In this document: positions 16,017 through 25,298 of the stretch, piece after piece | Position numbering within the stretch: the stretch's first letter is position 1 | Layout of the letters: each line of letters begins with the position of its first letter | Assembly: GCA_030652115.1 (NCBI GenBank) | Contig: JAUSBK010000010.1 | Location: forward strand, 62,001 to 126,000 | Source of the DNA: Coriobacteriia bacterium | GTDB lineage: Bacteria > Actinomycetota > Coriobacteriia > Anaerosomatales > Anaerosomataceae | Direction: 5' to 3' | DNA length: 64,000 bases | Translations under genes and position numbers: made by a program | The notes under the pieces: model-generated | What the model was told of the DNA's origin: nothing | Databases searched by the model: none | What the model saw: the letters and a program-made list of their open reading frames with translations, nothing else

Positions 16017-16514
16017 GTGGAGGTTCGTTCGCTCGAGTCGTCAGATCGTGAGTGGTCGGATGCCCTCGTCGCCCAGCACTTCGGCTCGTCGCGGGTCGTC
16101 TCTCGCGGCCGCTTGCACGACGCGACCACACTCCCCGGGCTCATCGCGCTGAAAGACGGCGTCCCGATCGGCTTGCTCCTGTACCGCATCGAGGCTGACG
16201 AGTGTGAGCTCGTCGTGCTGGTCTCGGAGCGCCCGCGCGAGGGTATCGCGACCGCCCTCGTGGATGCGCTCGTGAATCGTCTGTGCGAGTCCGGGTGCAC
16301 CCGCGCATGGCTCGTCACCACGAACGATAACCTCGGGGCGCAGTCGTTCTACGAGTCCTTGGGCTGGAGACTCGCAGCGGTGCACCGCGCTGCCGTCACC
16401 CAGGCGCGGGAGCTCAAGCCGGAGATTCCGGCCTTCGGGGAGAACGGGGTCCCAATCGAGGACGAACTTGAGTATGAGCTCGACGTGTCGCGCATAACCC
16501 GGGCGTCAACCTGA
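16017..16514 (+). CDS. GNAT family N-acetyltransferase (cassette 1)
   Basis: A 165-residue acetyl-CoA-dependent acyltransferase of the GNAT fold. The acetyl-CoA pyrophosphate loop is RPREGIATALVDAL (about res 72-85), with the following strand-helix NDNLGAQSFYESLGWR typical of motif B. The GTG start at 16017 is about 30 bases into the cassette. The stop lies inside the attC stem, as is common for cassette genes. GNATs are frequent cassette cargo and may modify antibiotics, amino acids or proteins; the substrate here cannot be told. Confidence 0.85.
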   Translation: MEVRSLESSDREWSDALVAQHFGSSRVVSRGRLHDATTLPGLIALKDGVPIGLLLYRIEADECELVVLVSERPREGIATALVDALVNRLCESGCTRAWLVTTNDNLGAQSFYESLGWRLAAVHRAAVTQARELKPEIPAFGENGVPIEDELEYELDVSRITRAST

Positions 16515-16577
16515 CGCGGCAAGCATGTCGTACTCTGTAAGCGCAGGGCGCGCAGGTTACGCCCAAAGACGTTAGTC
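16492..16577 (+). repeat. attC site 1
   Basis: Outer boxes GCATAAC (16492-16498) and GTTAGTC (16571-16577). The inner arms 16501-16518 and 16549-16564 pair over 16 bp (GGGCGT-AACCTG-CGCG). Two bases, C16507 and A16514, are left unpaired on the left arm only. That is the extrahelical-base pattern integrases use to choose the attC strand. Confidence 0.9.
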
Positions 16578-16602
16578 GCATCGTCGCCATTGAGGGGGAA
16601 CT

Positions 16603-17841
16603 GTGAGGCCTTTCGCGGAGGGAGACACATTCACCTTCTTCAGGAGTCTGGAGGAGGGAGTCCGTCGCGAAATCGATGCTCTCGACAACGACTACGTCCT
16701 GAACGCTTCTCCGTCTGAGCTGGAGCAGCACTTCGTCTCAAAGGGCACGATCTCGCCTCTTGTGATCCACGCGGATGACTACTACATGGCCTCCAACGAT
16801 TCAGCCAAGATTGACGTCTCGAATGACTTCCTCCGCGGTGGCTACGGCGATGGACGGCCAATCGTGATCGCCGGGACGAGACTCACAATCGCGATACCCT
16901 TTGAAGGCGACGCCAAGCTCTGGCGAATTCGAGCGTCAACCTTCTCCATGGGAGGCTACCCCGAGATAGACCTCGTGGGCGGAGAGGTTCGCTTCGGCGT
17001 CACGTTCCCGGACGATTCCGCCAATGCAGACACGCTGAGGCGACAGATCGACGGCCATGTGAAGTCGCTGGTGACTGCCGTCGACTACCTCGCGAACGAC
17101 GTTGCGAAGCACAATCAGTCGATGCGGTCAATGGTGCCTGCTGCCATTGAGAGCAAGCGTGCGAAGGCACTGACAGCCACAAACGCCGTAGCATCGCTTG
17201 GCATCCCGATGAAGCGCAGCGAGCAGCCGCCGACCTTCACTCTCCCATTGCAGCGGCGCCCCACGCCAATCACGCGTCCCAAGGTGGCGACGGGCAAGTA
17301 TGAGCCTGAGCCACTTCTCGCCAGGGCGGAATACGACCACATTCTCACGGTCATGAGGAGTATGTCCCTTGTGATCGAGAGGAATCCCGCGTCTTTCGGG
17401 GACTTGAGCGAGGAGGCAATACGTGACCACTTCCTCCTCCAGTTGAACGGTCATTACCAGGGCGGTGCTACCGGCGAGACCTTCAATGCGTCCGGCAAGA
17501 CCGACATCCTTCTTCGTTCCGGGGATAGAAACGTCTTCATCGCAGAGTGCAAGTTCTGGCGCGGCACGAAGGGCTTCAGTGATGCTGTTGACCAGCTCCT
17601 GGGCTACCTCACGTGGCGCGACTCCAAGACGGCGCTAGTGGTGTTCAACCGCAATCGCGACACCGCAGGTGTTCGCGCGAAGATGCATGCAGCCATCGAG
17701 GCACGCCCCGAGTGGGTGAAGACGCTAGTTGCGAGCACGACCGGAGATTCATCGTACGCATTGGTGAAGCCGAGCGATCCCGGTCGCGAGATTCTGCTGA
17801 CTACGCAGCTGTACGATGTGCCTGCTGGGACGAGCGACTAA
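16603..17841 (+). CDS. PD-(D/E)XK nuclease-like protein (cassette 2)
   Basis: A 412-residue protein I do not recognise by name. The C-terminal region (about 240-400) looks like a restriction-endonuclease fold. It has a predicted core GKTDILLR followed by VFIAECKFW, giving the D...ExK catalytic set of PD-(D/E)XK enzymes, then a helix and the strand TALVVFNRN. The N-terminal half has no motif I can name. GTG 16603 follows GAGGGGGAA. The stop TAA lies inside the attC left box GACTAAC. No methyltransferase is present, so a classical restriction-modification pair is unlikely; a standalone defence nuclease or repair role is possible. Confidence 0.75.
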   Translation: MRPFAEGDTFTFFRSLEEGVRREIDALDNDYVLNASPSELEQHFVSKGTISPLVIHADDYYMASNDSAKIDVSNDFLRGGYGDGRPIVIAGTRLTIAIPFEGDAKLWRIRASTFSMGGYPEIDLVGGEVRFGVTFPDDSANADTLRRQIDGHVKSLVTAVDYLANDVAKHNQSMRSMVPAAIESKRAKALTATNAVASLGIPMKRSEQPPTFTLPLQRRPTPITRPKVATGKYEPEPLLARAEYDHILTVMRSMSLVIERNPASFGDLSEEAIRDHFLLQLNGHYQGGATGETFNASGKTDILLRSGDRNVFIAECKFWRGTKGFSDAVDQLLGYLTWRDSKTALVVFNRNRDTAGVRAKMHAAIEARPEWVKTLVASTTGDSSYALVKPSDPGREILLTTQLYDVPAGTSD

Positions 17842-17896
17842 CCCGGAAATCGAGCCGACTCGCTTCGCTCGCGGCCCATCTCCAAGAACGTTAGTG
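17836..17896 (+). repeat. attC site 2
   Basis: Outer boxes GACTAAC (17836-17842) and GTTAGTG (17890-17896), 61 bases apart overall, close to the shortest known attC lengths. The inner stem is weaker than in sites 1 and 4 (GGAAATC...GCCG against CGGC...ATCTCC). Confidence 0.8.
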
Positions 17897-18236
17897 ATAC
17901 ACGGTACTGTTCCTCGCGTCTGAGTTCACTCTCGGGTGCGGTTGTCGTCATCGCAGCCACCTGACCGTCGCCGGGTTCAGACACACGTTCAACGTGCACA
18001 CGGCATGAACGTTTCATGCACCAAGTCCTATGAGCCGGTCACCCGTTCACGAGCAGGAGTCCCTACTTCGCCAAGTGCGGACCGCGATTGCCGGAAGTCT
18101 GACCGCGAGAGAGGGACTGGGCCTGATAGACTCATCGCGGATTGAACGTTCTGAGTTGCAGACTCGTGGGTCTGACCGTCGTTGGGGGCGTACTCTGGTA
18201 GACTCCAGCGGAGTAGAGTTCGGTATGGGGGAAAGC
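17897..18236 (+). promoter_or_regulatory. Leader of the three-gene cassette with two palindromes
   Basis: 340 bases between attC2 and the first gene of cassette 3. I see no convincing gene, although frames are open. Two perfect inverted repeats lie close together: CACGTT-C-AACGTG (17984-17996) and GCATGAA-CGT-TTCATGC (18003-18019). These are candidate operators, suggesting the operon has its own regulated promoter rather than relying on a promoter at the array start. No consensus -35/-10 pair stands out. Confidence 0.5.
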
Positions 18237-19208
18237 ATGGATGAGATTCGTTTTTCGCAATTTGCCGCGCCTTGGCGAGACGAGAAGACCCGGCTGGATT
18301 GGAAGACCGCGACCGCATTGTTTGGGTCTCCAAACTGGCAGGAACTTGAGCTCTCGACTACTTCTGAGGTCCTGTTCAGTCTCCGAGGTATTGACTACTT
18401 GAACCCAGACGGACTCCTATGGGTGCTACTTCTTGGTGAGCGAGCCAGACAAGTTGACCGCAACCGGACGCTTTGGCTAGAACTGCCGCATGAAGGAGCG
18501 TCTCTCCGCTACCTGAAGGAGTCGGCTTTCGCCGCGGTCTCCAGTGAGGTGTTCATGCTGTCAAACCCTTACGATCTCGACAGAGTCGACGTCCCGGCAC
18601 CTCGACGAGGCTTGCGTTTCTACAGGGTAGACATCGACTCGTTGGGTTCCGTCGTATCGGATGTCGGTTGCCTACTAACTTCGTCCGAGTTCCTGAAGGG
18701 CCTTGGCATCGTGCCGTTCGATGAAGTCGCATTCGAGTACGTGCCGCCTTTTCTGGGTGTCGTGAGTGAGACAACGAAGAACGTGGTGCAGCACAGCCAC
18801 AGTACCCTCTCTGGGGGCCGGGGTTACATCGTCATAGGAGAGATGCGTACCGGTGTGACCAGAATATGTATTGGTGACGCCGGCCGTGGTCTACGCAGCA
18901 GCCTTGATGCAAAAGGTGCCAACGTGGCAGACGATGCTGCCGCGATTGAAGGCGCTCTTCTCTACCACTATGCGAATCCTGAAGGGGAAGGGCTATTCAG
19001 GGTCCTGCAACTCGTGAGCTTTCTTGAAGGCGCTATTCGGATTCGATCCGGAGCAAGAGAGGTCTTCCTGGATCTCTCCAATGACTATCTCCGCACTGAA
19101 GATGAGACACGCTCCTTCATAGAGGAGAAGGCCCGATACCACAAGTGCGCCAACTTCCCTGGCGTGCAAGTAATGATTGATGTGAGACGACCTCGGGAGA
19201 AGCGGTGA
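18237..19208 (+). CDS. STAS-like plus GHKL ATPase protein (three-gene system, gene A)
   Basis: A 323-residue protein. The N-terminal part (about 40-95) resembles a STAS fold (VLFSLRGIDYLNPDGLLWVLLL). The C-terminal part is a GHKL ATPase: N-box SETTKNVVQHS with Glu178 and Asn182, G1 box IGDAGRGL (Asp214, Gly216, Gly218) and G2 box GEGLFRV (250-256). The combination recalls anti-sigma kinases and their STAS partners, here in one chain, so an ATP-dependent sensor or switch is likely. ATG 18237 is preferred because GGGGGA sits 5 bases upstream; an in-frame ATG at 18030 would add 69 unremarkable residues. Its stop overlaps gene B. Confidence 0.78.
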   Translation: MDEIRFSQFAAPWRDEKTRLDWKTATALFGSPNWQELELSTTSEVLFSLRGIDYLNPDGLLWVLLLGERARQVDRNRTLWLELPHEGASLRYLKESAFAAVSSEVFMLSNPYDLDRVDVPAPRRGLRFYRVDIDSLGSVVSDVGCLLTSSEFLKGLGIVPFDEVAFEYVPPFLGVVSETTKNVVQHSHSTLSGGRGYIVIGEMRTGVTRICIGDAGRGLRSSLDAKGANVADDAAAIEGALLYHYANPEGEGLFRVLQLVSFLEGAIRIRSGAREVFLDLSNDYLRTEDETRSFIEEKARYHKCANFPGVQVMIDVRRPREKR

Positions 19209-20263
19209 TGGCCGGGGGGACGTACTACCTCGAGCCACTCCGGGACGCACTGAAGCGACTTCTGATGTCGGGGCAAATGAACTCGCTTAAGAGAGCGCTC
19301 AGCCTATATGGCACTGCGGACGATGTTGATTCGCTGCAATCCTCGATTCGAGAAGCTCACAACCACACTCCGGGCGGCCTACCGCTAGTCGACATGACTC
19401 CATTTCAGAGTATTGGTGCACAGCAGAGACTCCATGTGCTGGCCGATCTGTACGAAGAGTTACCTTTCGTCATCCTGCTTGGCCGACAGCTGGCATTGGA
19501 GCAGGCGGAGTGGCTCCAGCGAGTCGCCTACGTCATATGTGATGATGACTTCCGTATTCTCCAAGTCTGCGATGGATCCGGAACGCCAACCGAGTCGATG
19601 GCCGAGGTTCATGACCAGTTCTTCATTGGGGGCAATGCGTCCAAAGCACATGACGAGTGGGTTGAAGAGCGACTCATGGGGTTTGCTCGATCGGCGATAA
19701 GGCGGCCACCAGAGAACACCCGCTATCTCCCGCTGCACGATGGCGCATGGGCGAACATGTGGATAGACGTCAAGACCCTGCTTCAGGAGTCAAGCTTCGC
19801 GTTCTTCGCTGCCTACCAGATTGGATATCGCCTGAGCAGGGGGTACCGAGACGAGTTCCCCGAAGATGCCATCGTTGCGAGCAACAACACAGCGTATGTT
19901 CTTGCCTCGCTGCTTCAAGCGCTATTCAGTCACAAGCAACTAGTGATGATCGACCGACTCGGGCCTCTGCCGGACTTGACTGAGCTGTGGTTGCTGGGTC
20001 TGGAGCGAATCGGGGCCAAGCGACTGTGCTGGATCGAGGACGTCATGTCGACAGGCCGAGAACTGGACATGACCCAACTCGTAGTTCGCCAATACAATGC
20101 TGAGGTCACGCAGGCAGTGTGCTTGTTCGACCTTGAAGTAGCGAAATCCCGCTTGATGTCGCCTTCGAAAATCGAGTCGCTGTGCCGGCCCTCCAAAGCA
20201 ATCGGATACAGTCGCCTAGCGAAGTACGAGATCGAGCCTGAGGAACTGGGGGTGCTCAAATGA
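19208..20263 (+). CDS. Phosphoribosyltransferase-like protein (three-gene system, gene B)
   Basis: A 351-residue protein. The last 160 residues look like a type I phosphoribosyltransferase: CWIEDVMSTGREL (res 275-287) keeps the acidic pair Glu277-Asp278 and the Thr282-Gly283 turn of the PRPP-binding loop. Residues 1-190 contain no motif I recognise. It starts at ATG 19208 in a TGATG overlap with gene A, and its end overlaps gene C by ATGA, so the three proteins are made from one message. A role in transferring to or cleaving PRPP or a nucleotide is inference; families named PRTase-CE were defined for conflict-linked proteins of this kind, to my memory. Confidence 0.75.
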   Translation: MAGGTYYLEPLRDALKRLLMSGQMNSLKRALSLYGTADDVDSLQSSIREAHNHTPGGLPLVDMTPFQSIGAQQRLHVLADLYEELPFVILLGRQLALEQAEWLQRVAYVICDDDFRILQVCDGSGTPTESMAEVHDQFFIGGNASKAHDEWVEERLMGFARSAIRRPPENTRYLPLHDGAWANMWIDVKTLLQESSFAFFAAYQIGYRLSRGYRDEFPEDAIVASNNTAYVLASLLQALFSHKQLVMIDRLGPLPDLTELWLLGLERIGAKRLCWIEDVMSTGRELDMTQLVVRQYNAEVTQAVCLFDLEVAKSRLMSPSKIESLCRPSKAIGYSRLAKYEIEPEELGVLK

Positions 20264-21936
20264 GTTCATCCAGTGGTCTGCGCTCATGCGGGGACTTCCT
20301 TGAGCTGCTGGATCTTCATGAAGCGACATTGGCGAATGTAGACCTTGAGCTGCTGTTCAGGAATGTCTACGAGTGGGTCGCGGTGATATGGTCAAGAACA
20401 ACCATGTACAAGTTCGTAGACCATGGGATCAACCACAGCTACGCAGACCTTGAGAAGGCTTTGCAGATCAGCACTGGCCTGGGGAGGCGCTTGTGTGAGT
20501 TCGAGCCGCTCGAACGCTGTGTCCTTGGAATGGCGGCGTTGCTGCATGACATTGGGATGCAGTACGGCAAGTACGCTGGCGAAGAGATGAGCGCTCAGGA
20601 GATCCGGAAGAACCACTGTGAACTTGGTTTCCAGATGGTTGAAGCGGCACGAGAGGGCACATTCGAGGCCGATCTTGGTGGGCCGGCTCTGCAAATAGAC
20701 AAGCAGACGTGGAGCTTCGTGTACTTCGCATCAGTTGTCGGCTTCGCCCACAGTGGAAGCAAGCACTGGAAGGCACTGGATGAGTCCGACTATGGCGACC
20801 GAAAAGAAGGTGGACAACAGCTTCTGAGACTCAGGTACTTGGCCGCGCTCCTGCGCATTGCGGATGAAGTGCACACCGAGTACACGCGGTTGCTGGAGAC
20901 GAGCTTCATGACCAGCCCGCTTCTTGACGAGAAGGGCAAAGCACATTGGGCCGCGTGCTACTACACGCAAGATGTTGAGGTATCGTCACCCGTAGTCGGG
21001 GGTGGCGGAGGCGTCTACCTGACGATGAAATGGCGTGTTCCGCGAGTCGCCTCCGACGAGACAGTTGATGTGATCAGGACCCTGCTTCAGGACCTCCGGG
21101 AGAAGAAGACAAACACCGAGTGTCAGTTGGTCCGCAAGTACCTCCGGCTTAGCGAACATAGCGATCCTTGCTTCATCGAATTCAGACTTGAACCCACACC
21201 GCAGCGTTCGGCCATCGAGGATCCTTCAGCGGACGTGGTGATGTATGTGCGAGAGATGCGCCCGATCCATTTTGGCTTGAGCGAGCCGAGCCAATTGGGG
21301 AACCTCTCGTTTCTCCCTCAGACGAGCGAGGATGATGGATGGCTGCGGACGCACGCAGAGCAGTTCTTCTCTCAAGGGCGAGGCGTGATTTCCGGACACT
21401 TTCGTGTTCGGACGGGCAGACACACAAACAAGTACGTTCGCTGTCGTGAACTGTGTGAGGACTCCGGATTCTCCTTCAAACTTGCTTGGCGACTTGCGAG
21501 TTTCTACAGGGACCGTGAGATAGCACACGTTATTGCCGTCGGAACCAGCGCGATTAGGGTGACCAGCCTCCTGTCAGTGATGCTTCCTGGCGTCGAGTTC
21601 TCATACACCTTCGCGGACGAGAGATCCTACACTACGTATGAGCAGGATATAAAGCGAGTCGCTGGCAACGTTCTTATCGTTGACGATATCCTTGGCGTTG
21701 GTAGCGTTCTACATCAGGTGGTCGATAGGCTGAGGTCGCAGGATCCCATCCCAATGCGAATAGAGGCGTTCGTGCTCTATTCTCTGGGAGATGCGAAGGC
21801 GGCGCTGGCGGACCTAGTCGATGTCGAAGTCACCTGCTTGGCTGCATTTCCTGACGTCATGTACTGGGACGAAGTCGCCGACGGGACTTGTCCACAGTGC
21901 GCACCCAAACCCGGCATTCTTAGTCTTCCAGAGTAG
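20260..21936 (+). CDS. HD phosphohydrolase fused to OPRT-like domain (three-gene system, gene C)
   Basis: A 558-residue two-domain protein. Residues 45-210 form an HD domain with FVDHGINHS (His55/His59), LLHDIG (His96-Asp97), His119, GFAHSG (His164) and LLRIADEVH (Asp202), so metal ligands look complete. Residues 370-558 resemble orotate phosphoribosyltransferase: VISGHFRVRTGRHTNKYVRC (376 on), the acidic pair in LIVDDILGVGS (Asp475-Asp476), and the tail CPQCAPKPGIL (Cys544, Cys547), seen in some OPRTs. The PRPP loop has lost its TTG/TGxT residues, suggesting altered chemistry or a binding role. Coupled to gene B. An HD effector acting on nucleotides is a reasonable guess. Confidence 0.78.
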   Translation: MSSSSGLRSCGDFLELLDLHEATLANVDLELLFRNVYEWVAVIWSRTTMYKFVDHGINHSYADLEKALQISTGLGRRLCEFEPLERCVLGMAALLHDIGMQYGKYAGEEMSAQEIRKNHCELGFQMVEAAREGTFEADLGGPALQIDKQTWSFVYFASVVGFAHSGSKHWKALDESDYGDRKEGGQQLLRLRYLAALLRIADEVHTEYTRLLETSFMTSPLLDEKGKAHWAACYYTQDVEVSSPVVGGGGGVYLTMKWRVPRVASDETVDVIRTLLQDLREKKTNTECQLVRKYLRLSEHSDPCFIEFRLEPTPQRSAIEDPSADVVMYVREMRPIHFGLSEPSQLGNLSFLPQTSEDDGWLRTHAEQFFSQGRGVISGHFRVRTGRHTNKYVRCRELCEDSGFSFKLAWRLASFYRDREIAHVIAVGTSAIRVTSLLSVMLPGVEFSYTFADERSYTTYEQDIKRVAGNVLIVDDILGVGSVLHQVVDRLRSQDPIPMRIEAFVLYSLGDAKAALADLVDVEVTCLAAFPDVMYWDEVADGTCPQCAPKPGILSLPE

Positions 21937-22068
21937 GGTCCGAATCGCGCCAGGCGTATCGTGTGCGCGATTTGTAGTGTTGAGCTTGCCGCACACAAGT
22001 CGCAGCCGACTCCGAACGCTGCGTGTAACGGCGGCACGGACCCCTCGGTTGCGGGCTTCAGTCCTGAT
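21937..22068 (+). other. Non-coding 3' part of cassette 3
   Basis: 132 bases between the gene C stop and attC3. Open frames here give no recognisable product. No clear terminator. Confidence 0.5.
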
Positions 22069-22172
22069 CACTAACCCGCGCTTCCACACAGACGGCGCGG
22101 CCTGAGTGAAGGTATTCTGAGATGACAGCGGTGCAACGGCCGCGCCGCTGGTGAAGCGCAGACACGTTAGGC
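22069..22172 (+). repeat. attC site 3
   Basis: Outer boxes CACTAAC (22069-22075) and GTTAGGC (22166-22172). The stem includes CGCTTC/GAAGCG and a perfect 10-bp inner helix CGGCGCGGCC (22093-22102) with GGCCGCGCCG (22138-22147). The spacer between the two helices is longer on the left arm. Confidence 0.88.
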
Positions 22173-22193
22173 CAACTCCTTTGGGGGAGTGCG

Positions 22194-23168
22194 TTGGATA
22201 TTCGCGACAAGCGGGATCTGATTGATCGCATCGCTGGATGTTTCGTCGATGACGACAACTGGGACCGAAGGCAGTCGCAAAACGACATTTCCATGCACTT
22301 GGCAGCTTACGGCGTCGCCTTCGACCGCCCCTTGCCAGAGTCCGTGAACAGCCGGCGGAAGCGAATCCAGCACCTGCTCATTCCTGAGCCGGCAAGCGTG
22401 GTCGTGCGAATTGCGACTGAGTTGGGCATCCCGCACGCCTTCGACACACCGTCGCGAGGACCTAGTGGTGGCTTGTCCCATGATCGCTCGCATATGGAAG
22501 CCGCGATCGACCGGGCACGGCGATGCGTGAGCGAGCCCGGCAAGGCCTCACCCCGTGTCGGAGCCGTAGTGGTGCTGGCCGGAACCGTCCTGGGCGCTGC
22601 CTTTCGAGGCGAGCAGGCTTCGGGAGAGCACGCTGAGTTCACGCTGCTGGAGAAGAAGCTCCCAGATACCGCGCTCGCCGGCTCGACCCTCTACACAACT
22701 CTCGAGCCCTGCACGAGCCGCAATCACCCCAAGATTCCATGTGTAGAGCGAATCATCGAACGTAGGATTGCGCGAGTCGTCATCGGTACTTTGGATCCGA
22801 ACGATGAGATTCGCGGCCGAGGGGAGCTTCGGCTCCGCGATGCGGGGATTGAGATCAGCAGATTCGATCCCGACTTGATGGCGGCAATTGAGGAGCTAAA
22901 CAGGGAGTTCATTCGGGACCAGAAGGAGAAGTCCGGGCGTCTTCGGGCGACGGGCCTCGCATACGTCCCCAGGGTGGTCGGTCTCCCGGTCGACGAGGCG
23001 GAGAGGTCGATCCTGGACGCGGACCTGCAGCCCAGGGTCGTTTCGGACTATGGACCCGGTTCCGACGCACTCGAGATGGGTCTGGTGTTCAAGCAGCAAC
23101 CCGAGGGCTCGATGGAGGTCCCTCACGGCACGGTCGTTCGCATACACACCTGGTTTGAGACCCAGTAG
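22194..23168 (+). CDS. RibD-like cytidine deaminase-fold protein with C-terminal PASTA domain (cassette 4)
   Basis: A 324-residue three-part protein. Residues 1-90 are an unassigned helical region. Residues 98-240 are a zinc-dependent deaminase of the RibD/dCMP type: PRVGAVVV, then GEHAEF with His146 and Glu148, and EPC-x9-C with Cys173 and Cys183. Residues 257-318 form a PASTA domain ([21 protein letters not shown]). PASTA domains normally sit outside the cell on PknB kinases and penicillin-binding proteins, but no membrane segment or signal peptide is visible here. TTG 22194 follows GGGGGAG. Substrate could be a free pyrimidine, a nucleotide or a nucleic acid. Confidence 0.8.
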
Positions 23169-23186
23169 TTGAGTCGCCCAGGAGTG

Positions 23187-23275
23187 GCCTAGCCCGCGCT
23201 TCCAGCTGACGCGCAGGAGTCATCGGTTCGGCAGAGAAGGTAATGGCGCGCAGCTGAAGCGCAAAGACGCTAGGC
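23187..23275 (+). repeat. attC site 4 (core with GCT instead of GTT)
   Basis: Outer boxes GCCTAGC (23187-23193) and GCTAGGC (23269-23275) are fully complementary to each other but both carry a change from the AAC/GTT core. The inner arms 23196-23214 and 23246-23262 pair perfectly over 17 bp, leaving C23203 and A23209 unpaired on the left arm: a textbook attC fold with two extrahelical bases. Confidence 0.88.
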
Positions 23276-23302
23276 ACAGGCTTACTCAGGGGGGCTTCAT
23301 TC

Positions 23303-24217
23303 TTGCGTACTCGTAGGAGACTCGTCGGTGATCGTCCCGACTTGAAGTGCGCTCCAGCGGCTCCCGAGCCTTCGAAGGCGTCCAAACTAGCTGCTGAAGT
23401 CGCGCCTTGGGCGGCCATCGTGGCGTCCCTCGTTGTTGGAATCGCCTCAGTTGTGATTGCCACCAGCGCCAACTCGATATCTGCGCAGCAAAACTCGCTG
23501 GTGGCTGAGCAGAACGAACTGGTTGTCCAACAGCAGAGAGTTCTGCAAGCGGAAGCGGCGTTGCTCGCGACGCAGACGGTGCTGATGGAAGAGGGGAATC
23601 GCATCGCTGCATCCTCCCTGCAGCCCGTGATTACGATCAAGTACGGGTTGCAGGAGTACAGCCACAAGGATCTGGCCGGGCACTGGCAGGAGTACGTGGA
23701 GATTACCAACTCGGGCTCACCGGCCCTTGAGATGGAGGTGTCGGTCCTGACCGTGGCAGTTGTCAGTATCGGGGCAGGCCACGCAACCGCACCATCAGCT
23801 TTCACAGCAAACCCCACCTTCTTCTACAACTCCTTCGAGTTCTCAGGTGAGATGGCCACGACGGGCCGCGTAGGCTACCTCGTCTCTGACGACTTGACCA
23901 CTGATGAAGTCTGGCAGGCATGGCCGGCCAATGACTATCAAGCAGCGGCAGGCGATCTCTTCATCGACCGCCTTCATTACCTGCACATCGAGTACACGGA
24001 CATGACCGGCGCCCAGCATGAGGAGAACTACCTACTCGATCGAAGAGCGCCAGGCCCTGAGCGCATAACGCCGGAGGCAGCCGCTGAGGCCGCGCGACAC
24101 TACGCTGACCTGCAGGCGACGGGCGCGTACTATCCTGGCTATCAGTTGTCCGGCGATGGACTGCTCGATCTTTGGAGCAGATACGTCGGCAACGGGAAGG
24201 GTGCGTTCTACCAGTAG
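23303..24217 (+). CDS. Membrane-anchored protein with coiled coil, function unknown (cassette 5)
   Basis: A 304-residue protein not recognised by family. One transmembrane helix at about 32-53 (VAPWAAIVASLVVGIASVVI) is followed by a Gln/Ala/Glu-rich coiled coil (about 55-100), then a beta-rich domain (VITIKYGLQEY..., VEITNSGSPALEMEVSV) and a helical tail. The beta-rich part resembles many uncharacterised proteins that place a globular domain beside the membrane. TTG 23303 has AGGGGGG upstream. Single gene in its cassette. Confidence 0.7.
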   Translation: MRTRRRLVGDRPDLKCAPAAPEPSKASKLAAEVAPWAAIVASLVVGIASVVIATSANSISAQQNSLVAEQNELVVQQQRVLQAEAALLATQTVLMEEGNRIAASSLQPVITIKYGLQEYSHKDLAGHWQEYVEITNSGSPALEMEVSVLTVAVVSIGAGHATAPSAFTANPTFFYNSFEFSGEMATTGRVGYLVSDDLTTDEVWQAWPANDYQAAAGDLFIDRLHYLHIEYTDMTGAQHEENYLLDRRAPGPERITPEAAAEAARHYADLQATGAYYPGYQLSGDGLLDLWSRYVGNGKGAFYQ

Positions 24218-24224
24218 CCGCCGT

Positions 24225-24307
24225 GCCTAACCCGTGCTTCCAGACGACTCACGCACTAGGCTGAACTGGAGCCGCTCGTTCGCGGCTGAGGCACAGAGAC
24301 GTAGCGT
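24225..24307 (+). repeat. attC site 5 with damaged right core
   Basis: The left box GCCTAAC (24225-24231) is intact. The expected right core GTTAGCG reads GTAGCGT (24301-24307), one T short, so recombination here may be blocked. The stem starts GTGCTTCCAG against CTGAGGCAC. It is strongly similar to attC6 across its length. Confidence 0.8.
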
Positions 24308-24344
24308 CAGCGGCATCCGCATTAGACGCTGAGGATGTGGTGCT

Positions 24345-25112
24345 TTGAGCAAGTCGGGGTTCGGATACATTGACCTGTCGCGCTCGTGGCTAGTCTCGGC
24401 CGTGCCTGTGCTGGCATACTCGGTTGCGTTCCTGTCCCGGGTCGGTGAGGCATTCGTGCGCAAGGTCCCCGTCGACTGGATAGTGATATCGCTAACGGAC
24501 GCACTCTCCCGGACGGCGCTGGTCAGCCTCGTTGTGCTCGCCATGTTCATGTCGGCACGGGCGGAGGCAGCGTGGGTGTGTCGTCATCCCACATGGACCC
24601 ATCGGGCCGCGTCGAACTTCCTCGAGCAACTTGCCCCGCTGACGATGATGCTGGTGCTCCTCGGCCAGCTCGTACTGGCAGTGTCATTCGGTGTCGTCTT
24701 TGTTGTTGTCACCGCGGGGATGGCCCTGCGGGACTATCGTAGGCGTGACTCCCTGCCCTCGAGGAAGCGCGAGATCATCGGGCCTGTGATCCTCGAGGCC
24801 GGCAGTGGTGGCGAGGACAAGCCTGCGACTCGCGTGTCTGCTCAGTGGGCAATGAGTGTCTTGATGGTGGCTCTCGTGCTTGCCCCCGTGGGCGGGGCGA
24901 TGCGCGCTCTCGTGGAGCAGGACTTCCTTGTAGATCCTGACCAGACGACCATCATTGTTGCTAGCTATGGGCATGTCGCCGTCTTGGCTGATCTTGACGT
25001 TCGTGAGGATGGCGAATGGGTTGTTGGCAGTACTCGCCGTCTGGTCGATCTGACATCAGAACCGGGATTGGTCTTCGAGATGAAGCGGGCGCCCTGGTTC
25101 ATTGACTGGTAG
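24345..25112 (+). CDS. Multi-pass membrane protein, function unknown (cassette 6)
   Basis: A 255-residue protein with about four hydrophobic helices: near 14-30, 55-72, 96-130 (a long stretch that may be one or two helices) and 165-187. It ends in a soluble C-terminal region of about 65 residues (TTIIVASYGHVAVLADLDVREDG). No family motif is recognised. TTG 24345 is preceded by GCTGAGG. The C-terminal beta-rich segment could be a small sensor or channel-associated domain, but nothing supports a specific role. Confidence 0.65.
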   Translation: MSKSGFGYIDLSRSWLVSAVPVLAYSVAFLSRVGEAFVRKVPVDWIVISLTDALSRTALVSLVVLAMFMSARAEAAWVCRHPTWTHRAASNFLEQLAPLTMMLVLLGQLVLAVSFGVVFVVVTAGMALRDYRRRDSLPSRKREIIGPVILEAGSGGEDKPATRVSAQWAMSVLMVALVLAPVGGAMRALVEQDFLVDPDQTTIIVASYGHVAVLADLDVREDGEWVVGSTRRLVDLTSEPGLVFEMKRAPWFIDW

Positions 25113-25121
25113 CTGGGGAGC

Positions 25122-25209
25122 CGCTAACCCGCGCTTCCAGCCGACTCACGCACGCGCTAGGCTGAGACTGGAGCCGCTCGTTCGCGGCTGAACCGCAAAC
25201 ACGTTAGCC
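25122..25209 (+). repeat. attC site 6 (right end of array)
   Basis: Outer boxes CGCTAAC (25122-25128) and GTTAGCC (25203-25209). The arm GCGCTTC-AGCCG-C pairs with GCGGCTGAACCGC (25184-25196) with one mismatch, leaving C and A unpaired on the left arm. The inner hairpin GCCGC/GCGGC is shared with attC5. This is the last attC before the core genes resume. Confidence 0.88.
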
Positions 25210-25298
25210 ATAACTGCGCCACAATGCCCACCCACCCAACTGGGGTAGAGTCAGGGAGTCAGGAGTCCTTCCCTCGGCGATCAGTTCGGATGTGACGC

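Follow-up and report, generated by a model that had tools for sequence, protein, structure and literature searches.

We find that a one-gene integron cassette from a Coriobacteriia bacterium probably carries an immune deaminase of a partner-swapping family, joined here to a PASTA domain in a fusion that is rare and was seen once. The gene lies in a 64,000-nucleotide stretch of DNA, referred to throughout as the window, and both its reading frame and its coordinates (22194-23168) were placed correctly in the original prediction. The gene and its product are laid out as follows:

22194..23168, + strand: deaminase-PASTA gene, 324 amino acids, TTG start, with GGGGGAG upstream as a possible ribosome-binding site
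22194..22469, + strand: N-terminal region (aa 1-92), four predicted helices with pLDDT mostly 54-72, no family
22470..22937, + strand: RibD-like zinc deaminase core (aa 93-248), with HAE at 146-148, PC-x9-C at 172-183, an invariant K180 and DPN at 201-203
22965..23147, + strand: PASTA domain (aa 258-318), from Pfam, an independent profile and a structural model

The gene had been proposed to sit in a mobile cassette, and the cassette proved to be that of an integron, part of a six-attC array (16491-25212, all sites on the + strand) lying between lysC and a host PASTA kinase gene:

16491..16580, + strand: attC of the first cassette, which holds a GNAT gene (16017-16514)
16603..17841, + strand: PDC-S54 cassette gene, a candidate defence protein (PADLOC, 437 bits, nearly full length)
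17835..17899, + strand: attC of the PDC-S54 cassette
18030..21936, + strand: three-gene cassette with phosphoribosyltransferase-like and HD-CE domains (Pfam, NCBIfam)
22068..22175, + strand: attC upstream of the deaminase-PASTA gene, part of the preceding cassette, with its recombination point in GTTAGGC at 22166/22167
22167..23269, + strand: single-gene integron cassette containing the deaminase-PASTA gene only, its bounds taken from the attC cleavage points
23186..23278, + strand: attC of the deaminase-PASTA cassette, with paired core-box changes (CTAGC/GCTAG)
24224..24309, + strand: partly decayed attC, core box GTTAG changed to GTAG
25121..25212, + strand: final attC of the array, ahead of the host PASTA kinase gene

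Both attC sites flanking the gene form a bottom-strand fold with R and L stems and an unpaired spacer (z = -3.5 each). Over the six sites, stem positions were 93% paired versus 21-39% in slid controls, and four stem pairs carried compensatory changes on both sides. The array genes, except for the first, have a GC content of 0.56-0.62; most flanking host genes fall at 0.66-0.72, and a GGDEF/EAL gene is at 0.63. An Rfam search of the array returned no matches. Since our attC covariance model was built from the six array sites and therefore matches the window by construction, independent support comes from its matches elsewhere, in arrays on host contigs C2 and C9 and beside the integrase genes of related genomes. 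Run on the loci of the relatives of the deaminase, the model, which is tuned to the window lineage, gave no matches, and integron carriage of the family was seen for the window member only. The arrangement resembles that of the chromosomal integrons of Vibrio, documented stores of phage-defence genes (reviewed in PMC12409362), in having an attC-flanked single-gene cassette and a candidate defence gene in the array; it differs in that the host is an actinobacterium and that the integrase gene is absent from the assembly, although present in its kin. The cassette around 18030-21936 is unusually long (~4.3 kb), and its three overlapping or abutting genes, which encode an unidentified protein, a phosphoribosyltransferase-like protein and a protein with HD-CE and phosphoribosyltransferase domains, look like an undescribed operon, possibly for defence.

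We then sought to place the deaminase. The expected RibD/dCMP-type domain was recovered by Pfam (PF00383, 51.4 bits against a cut-off of 25; aa 96-199), with nine residues between the cysteines of its PC...C motif, and the HAE and PC...C zinc and catalytic motifs stand in the right fold for a zinc deaminase of the CDA superfamily. In the full-length AlphaFold2 model this part was confident (pLDDT mostly >85 over aa 100-230), and its top PDB matches were RibD/RibG deaminase domains (E 3e-12). The PASTA part of the same model was discarded, as unrelated C-termini had been aligned to it and made it meaningless, and the PASTA domain was therefore modelled on its own. NCBIfam and PDB searches likewise placed RibD nearest to the core; the TIGR00326 RibD model scored 73 bits where its equivalog cut-off asks for 156, and matched over the first 138 of its 343 positions only. 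The window protein thus lacks both an equivalog RibD score and the C-terminal reductase domain. Its family shares with RibD/RibG the fold, the zinc site and the DPN motif, but is set apart by the missing reductase, a longer PC-x9-C loop, the loss of the PNP asparagine, exchanged partner domains and a tree in which it forms a clade separate from RibD sequences (100/100 support). In an alignment of the family, the zinc and catalytic residues were invariant (14 of 14 members), DPN was largely kept and the PC-x9-C loop held a lysine near the position of RibG Lys79. In RibG, the phosphate of the substrate is handled by Lys79 and its ribose by Asp101 and Asn103 (PMC8256712). The asparagine of the RibD PNP motif is replaced by another residue in family members, and their substrate therefore cannot be read across from RibD; from these residues we infer that it may be a phosphorylated ribosyl compound other than, or besides, DAROPP.

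Twenty further members of the deaminase family were found, including one on a viral contig, in genomes labelled Rubrobacter, Verrucomicrobia, Deltaproteobacteria, Acidobacteria, Gemmatimonadaceae, Deinococcales, Dormiibacterota and others. In four samples taken at phylum level, ~1% of the genomes carry the family; the starting genome was part of some of these samples. A first scan of viral contigs found no members, while a later profile scan yielded one true member (L022) and an ordinary deaminase (L023) that was excluded. Searches by tblastn of plasmids and phages with the whole protein, and of plasmids with the core of a relative, gave no matches. What follows the deaminase differs among relatives or is absent. 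On the tree of 21 members, at least 10 changes of fused-partner architecture are needed, but the members with HATPase_c_4 and the seven that share another partner domain are partly clustered, so that not every difference is a separate swap. The domain shared by those seven, whose sequence includes GEVGPNGHRIGYTE, has no Pfam family and is conserved at the C-terminus of L013, L015, L016, L017, L018, L022 and L104; its fusions with the deaminase span several phyla and include the viral contig. Five members carry HATPase_c_4 after the deaminase (L045, L046, L048 and L049 by Pfam; L105 by eye). HATPase_c_4 is normally paired with Schlafen AlbA_2, and the deaminase-HATPase_c_4 fusion is an effector exchange in the slot that AlbA_2 usually fills. 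Other partners are a methyltransferase, a DUF4062-like region overlapping the candidate defence model PDC-S60 and, by eye, an OB-like tail; PASTA is the partner in 1 of 21 members, the window protein.

The surroundings of the relatives, read by hand at ~7 loci, contain defence genes: FRG/PDC-S15 and AAA_13/PDC-S06 beside L013, the HmaA helicase, a TmtA-like protein and NucS_C beside L015, Mrr beside L018, TIR/PDC-S35 beside L017, HEC-01A and an LmuA-like protein beside L021, and SLFN_AlbA_2 beside L022. At L019 the N-terminal domain of the family member is shared with an Abi_C protein (42% identity, E 9e-21) and, more distantly, with plasmid Mrr_cat proteins, so that the deaminase takes the position in which such effectors are otherwise found. 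The window array itself includes the PDC-S54 candidate defence gene. A defence setting is thus supported, at the level of gene neighbourhoods, by relatives that all lack PASTA, and the best explanation of these data is that the core is a RibD-derived hydrolytic deaminase forming a separate family and serving as an exchangeable module of defence proteins. AvcD and the dCTP/dCMP deaminases are phage-defence proteins that also use a CDA-fold deaminase (PMC10511110, PMC12409362), but the window protein is RibD-like and not dCMP-like; the PADLOC dCTPase model did not match it at E 1, and gave 13-20 bits for 4 of 6 relatives scanned. No PADLOC model matched the window protein convincingly, the best being PD-T4-6, which reached 16 bits and covered nothing but the PASTA part. 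Our literature search for defence deaminases of RibD type or with PASTA gave no match. The core looks like an effector module of bacterial defence that exchanges its partners and has not been catalogued, derived from RibD, present in ~1% of genomes in each of the four samples and unrecognised by PADLOC.

In the profile comparison that had been proposed for the N-terminal 90 residues, no Pfam family matched, and a weak likeness emerged to the Abi/Mrr-associated N-terminal domain (aa 1-93; hhalign probability 5%, P 0.008, 41 columns), which is only suggestive of a resemblance. BLASTP produced no alignment between the N-termini of the window protein and L019. The deaminase stands in the effector place of Abi_C/Mrr proteins at L019, whereas for the window protein the shared N-terminal domain is only weakly suggested. 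Two candidate matches to the region were rejected: the sole non-self match in 346 genomes (L096), which has internal stops, and a Methylobacterium plasmid match (E 0.08) that falls inside an unrelated large open reading frame.

At the C-terminus, profile searches upheld the predicted PASTA domain, with support from a structural model. PF03793 matched aa 258-318 with 29.1 bits (cut-off 23.2), and a PASTA profile made from other genomes only scored the tail at 37.0 bits (7e-10), compared with a maximum of 6.2 bits for 5,000 composition-preserving shuffles; where this profile gave any score to other family members, it was <1 bit. A separate model of aa 245-324 (pLDDT 85) matched the solved PASTA structures 5nod, 5e12, 7o4c and 3ouv, and is taken as support only, its alignment consisting of PASTA domains and hence being non-independent. 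The window domain has 17-35% identity to other PASTA domains and keeps the core positions. It shares fold, scores and core positions with the PASTA Ser/Thr kinases PknB/PrkC, but is present as a single copy, in a protein without a membrane segment and with a deaminase in place of the kinase. We found no signal peptide or membrane segment in the 324-residue protein, in line with the original prediction: its highest 19-residue hydrophobicity was 1.57, in a strand of the deaminase core, against 2.48 for the membrane segment of the host kinase. An origin of the domain from the adjoining kinase was rejected, as the two PASTA sequences are just 26% identical. The kinase lies beyond the last attC among host genes and PASTA proteins were present in all 26 of the 26 related genomes searched, so coincidence, raised at first as a possibility, is the best reading of its proximity. 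When we looked for the deaminase plus PASTA architecture elsewhere, as had been suggested, the window protein stood alone: queries with the deaminase, the N-terminal region or PASTA recovered no second such protein in ~1,900 genomes, and searches of collections of genomes, viruses, plasmids and phages found none either.

Taken with the family context, we infer that the window member acts in defence and on a nucleotide, with PASTA as its sensor. We regard it as about an even call that the gene encodes a one-gene cytoplasmic immune effector with a swappable sensor part, which, once its partner domain is engaged, would deplete or alter a nucleotide. Such a protein is predicted to be inactive or autoinhibited at rest; a cue that signals infection or damage to the envelope would be bound by the N-terminal helical region, the C-terminal PASTA domain or both, the deaminase would then act on a pyrimidine-type nucleotide bearing ribose-5'-phosphate, and phage replication would be starved or the cell halted. 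Possible PASTA ligands are lipid II, muropeptide-like precursors or a protein. The same enzyme might instead be a metabolic accessory, a stray RibD-type deaminase of riboflavin or modified-base metabolism which an integron carries as an adaptive trait and in which PASTA is a passive appendage. Its nearest structures and sequence models are those of RibD, and it keeps the ribose-binding DPN motif and the lysine near RibG Lys79; but the host already has a RibD of its own (L002, beside an FMN-riboswitch-like sequence by eye), and the family lacks the reductase, falls outside RibD on the tree, has lost the PNP asparagine and swaps partners in the manner of effectors, and we hold a metabolic role to be unlikely. 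Export, with PASTA outside the cell as in secreted deaminase toxins, would fit the usual extracytoplasmic place of PASTA domains but not a protein devoid of signal peptide and membrane segment, with no toxin trafficking domain found and no immunity gene in its cassette, and is highly improbable.

The role of PASTA within an immune effector is a separate matter, as the domain is carried by one member and its role thus gains no support from conservation. The boldest version of the immune reading, in which PASTA works inside the cell as the sensor for an immune system of a single protein, carried on a mobile integron cassette, and switches on the nucleotide deaminase, seems to us doubtful; the cue would be a peptidoglycan precursor, cytoplasmic or released by damage (lipid II, muropeptide), or a wall-acting phage protein. 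Muropeptide binding by PknB was measured with a region of four PASTA domains (PMC3145798), and kinase PASTA domains, including terminal ones, also have other, protein-binding roles (PMC6428115), so that muropeptide binding by one cytoplasmic PASTA is not to be assumed. These same observations, together with the single copy here and the different or missing C-terminal domains of relatives, favour PASTA as a folding, dimerisation or protein-binding module rather than a ligand sensor, in an enzyme that may still be a defence effector through its N-terminus; single PASTA domains do occur in other proteins such as PonA2 (PMC3145798), and we consider such a module a real, if tentative, possibility. 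The failure to find a second deaminase-PASTA protein in any collection would suit a neutral fusion that arose once, by chance, in a cassette and has no selected function. Against this, the frame is intact, the fold preserved and the PASTA core positions kept at 17-35% identity, which argues that the domain was maintained or acquired whole, and we think a neutral fusion improbable. The PASTA-bearing member of the proposed immune family offers a direct test of whether wall precursors or lysis can be sensed from inside the cell to trigger immunity.

Finally, we examined integrons in the host family, Anaerosomataceae. In the host assembly, no match to the integron integrase model TIGR02249 exceeded the cut-off. 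The arrays on C2 and C9 end at contig ends, and the host integrase may therefore sit in an assembly gap. Integrases above the curated cut-off were present in 22 of 27 genomes of the family, covering all 11 genera and scoring mostly 460-480 bits, compared with 0 of 14 control genomes. Among the integrase loci of related genomes (L106-L113), attC arrays adjoin the integrase at L110 and L112, the former in a one-contig genome. When complete genomes were surveyed in 2022, Actinobacteria/Actinomycetota yielded no complete integron (PMC9024848); the carrier of this cassette points to integrons being usual in one family of that phylum. The host genome has at least 20 further attC sites, found in two contig-end arrays (C2:1-12000, L060; C9:76000-93374, L061) and as single sites on C5 (L062) and C2 (C2:49096), with L064 also among the attC loci. 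The genes of these further cassettes mostly have no PADLOC match, and contig C5 also bears FRG-, Schlafen- and TIR-like genes, as judged by eye.
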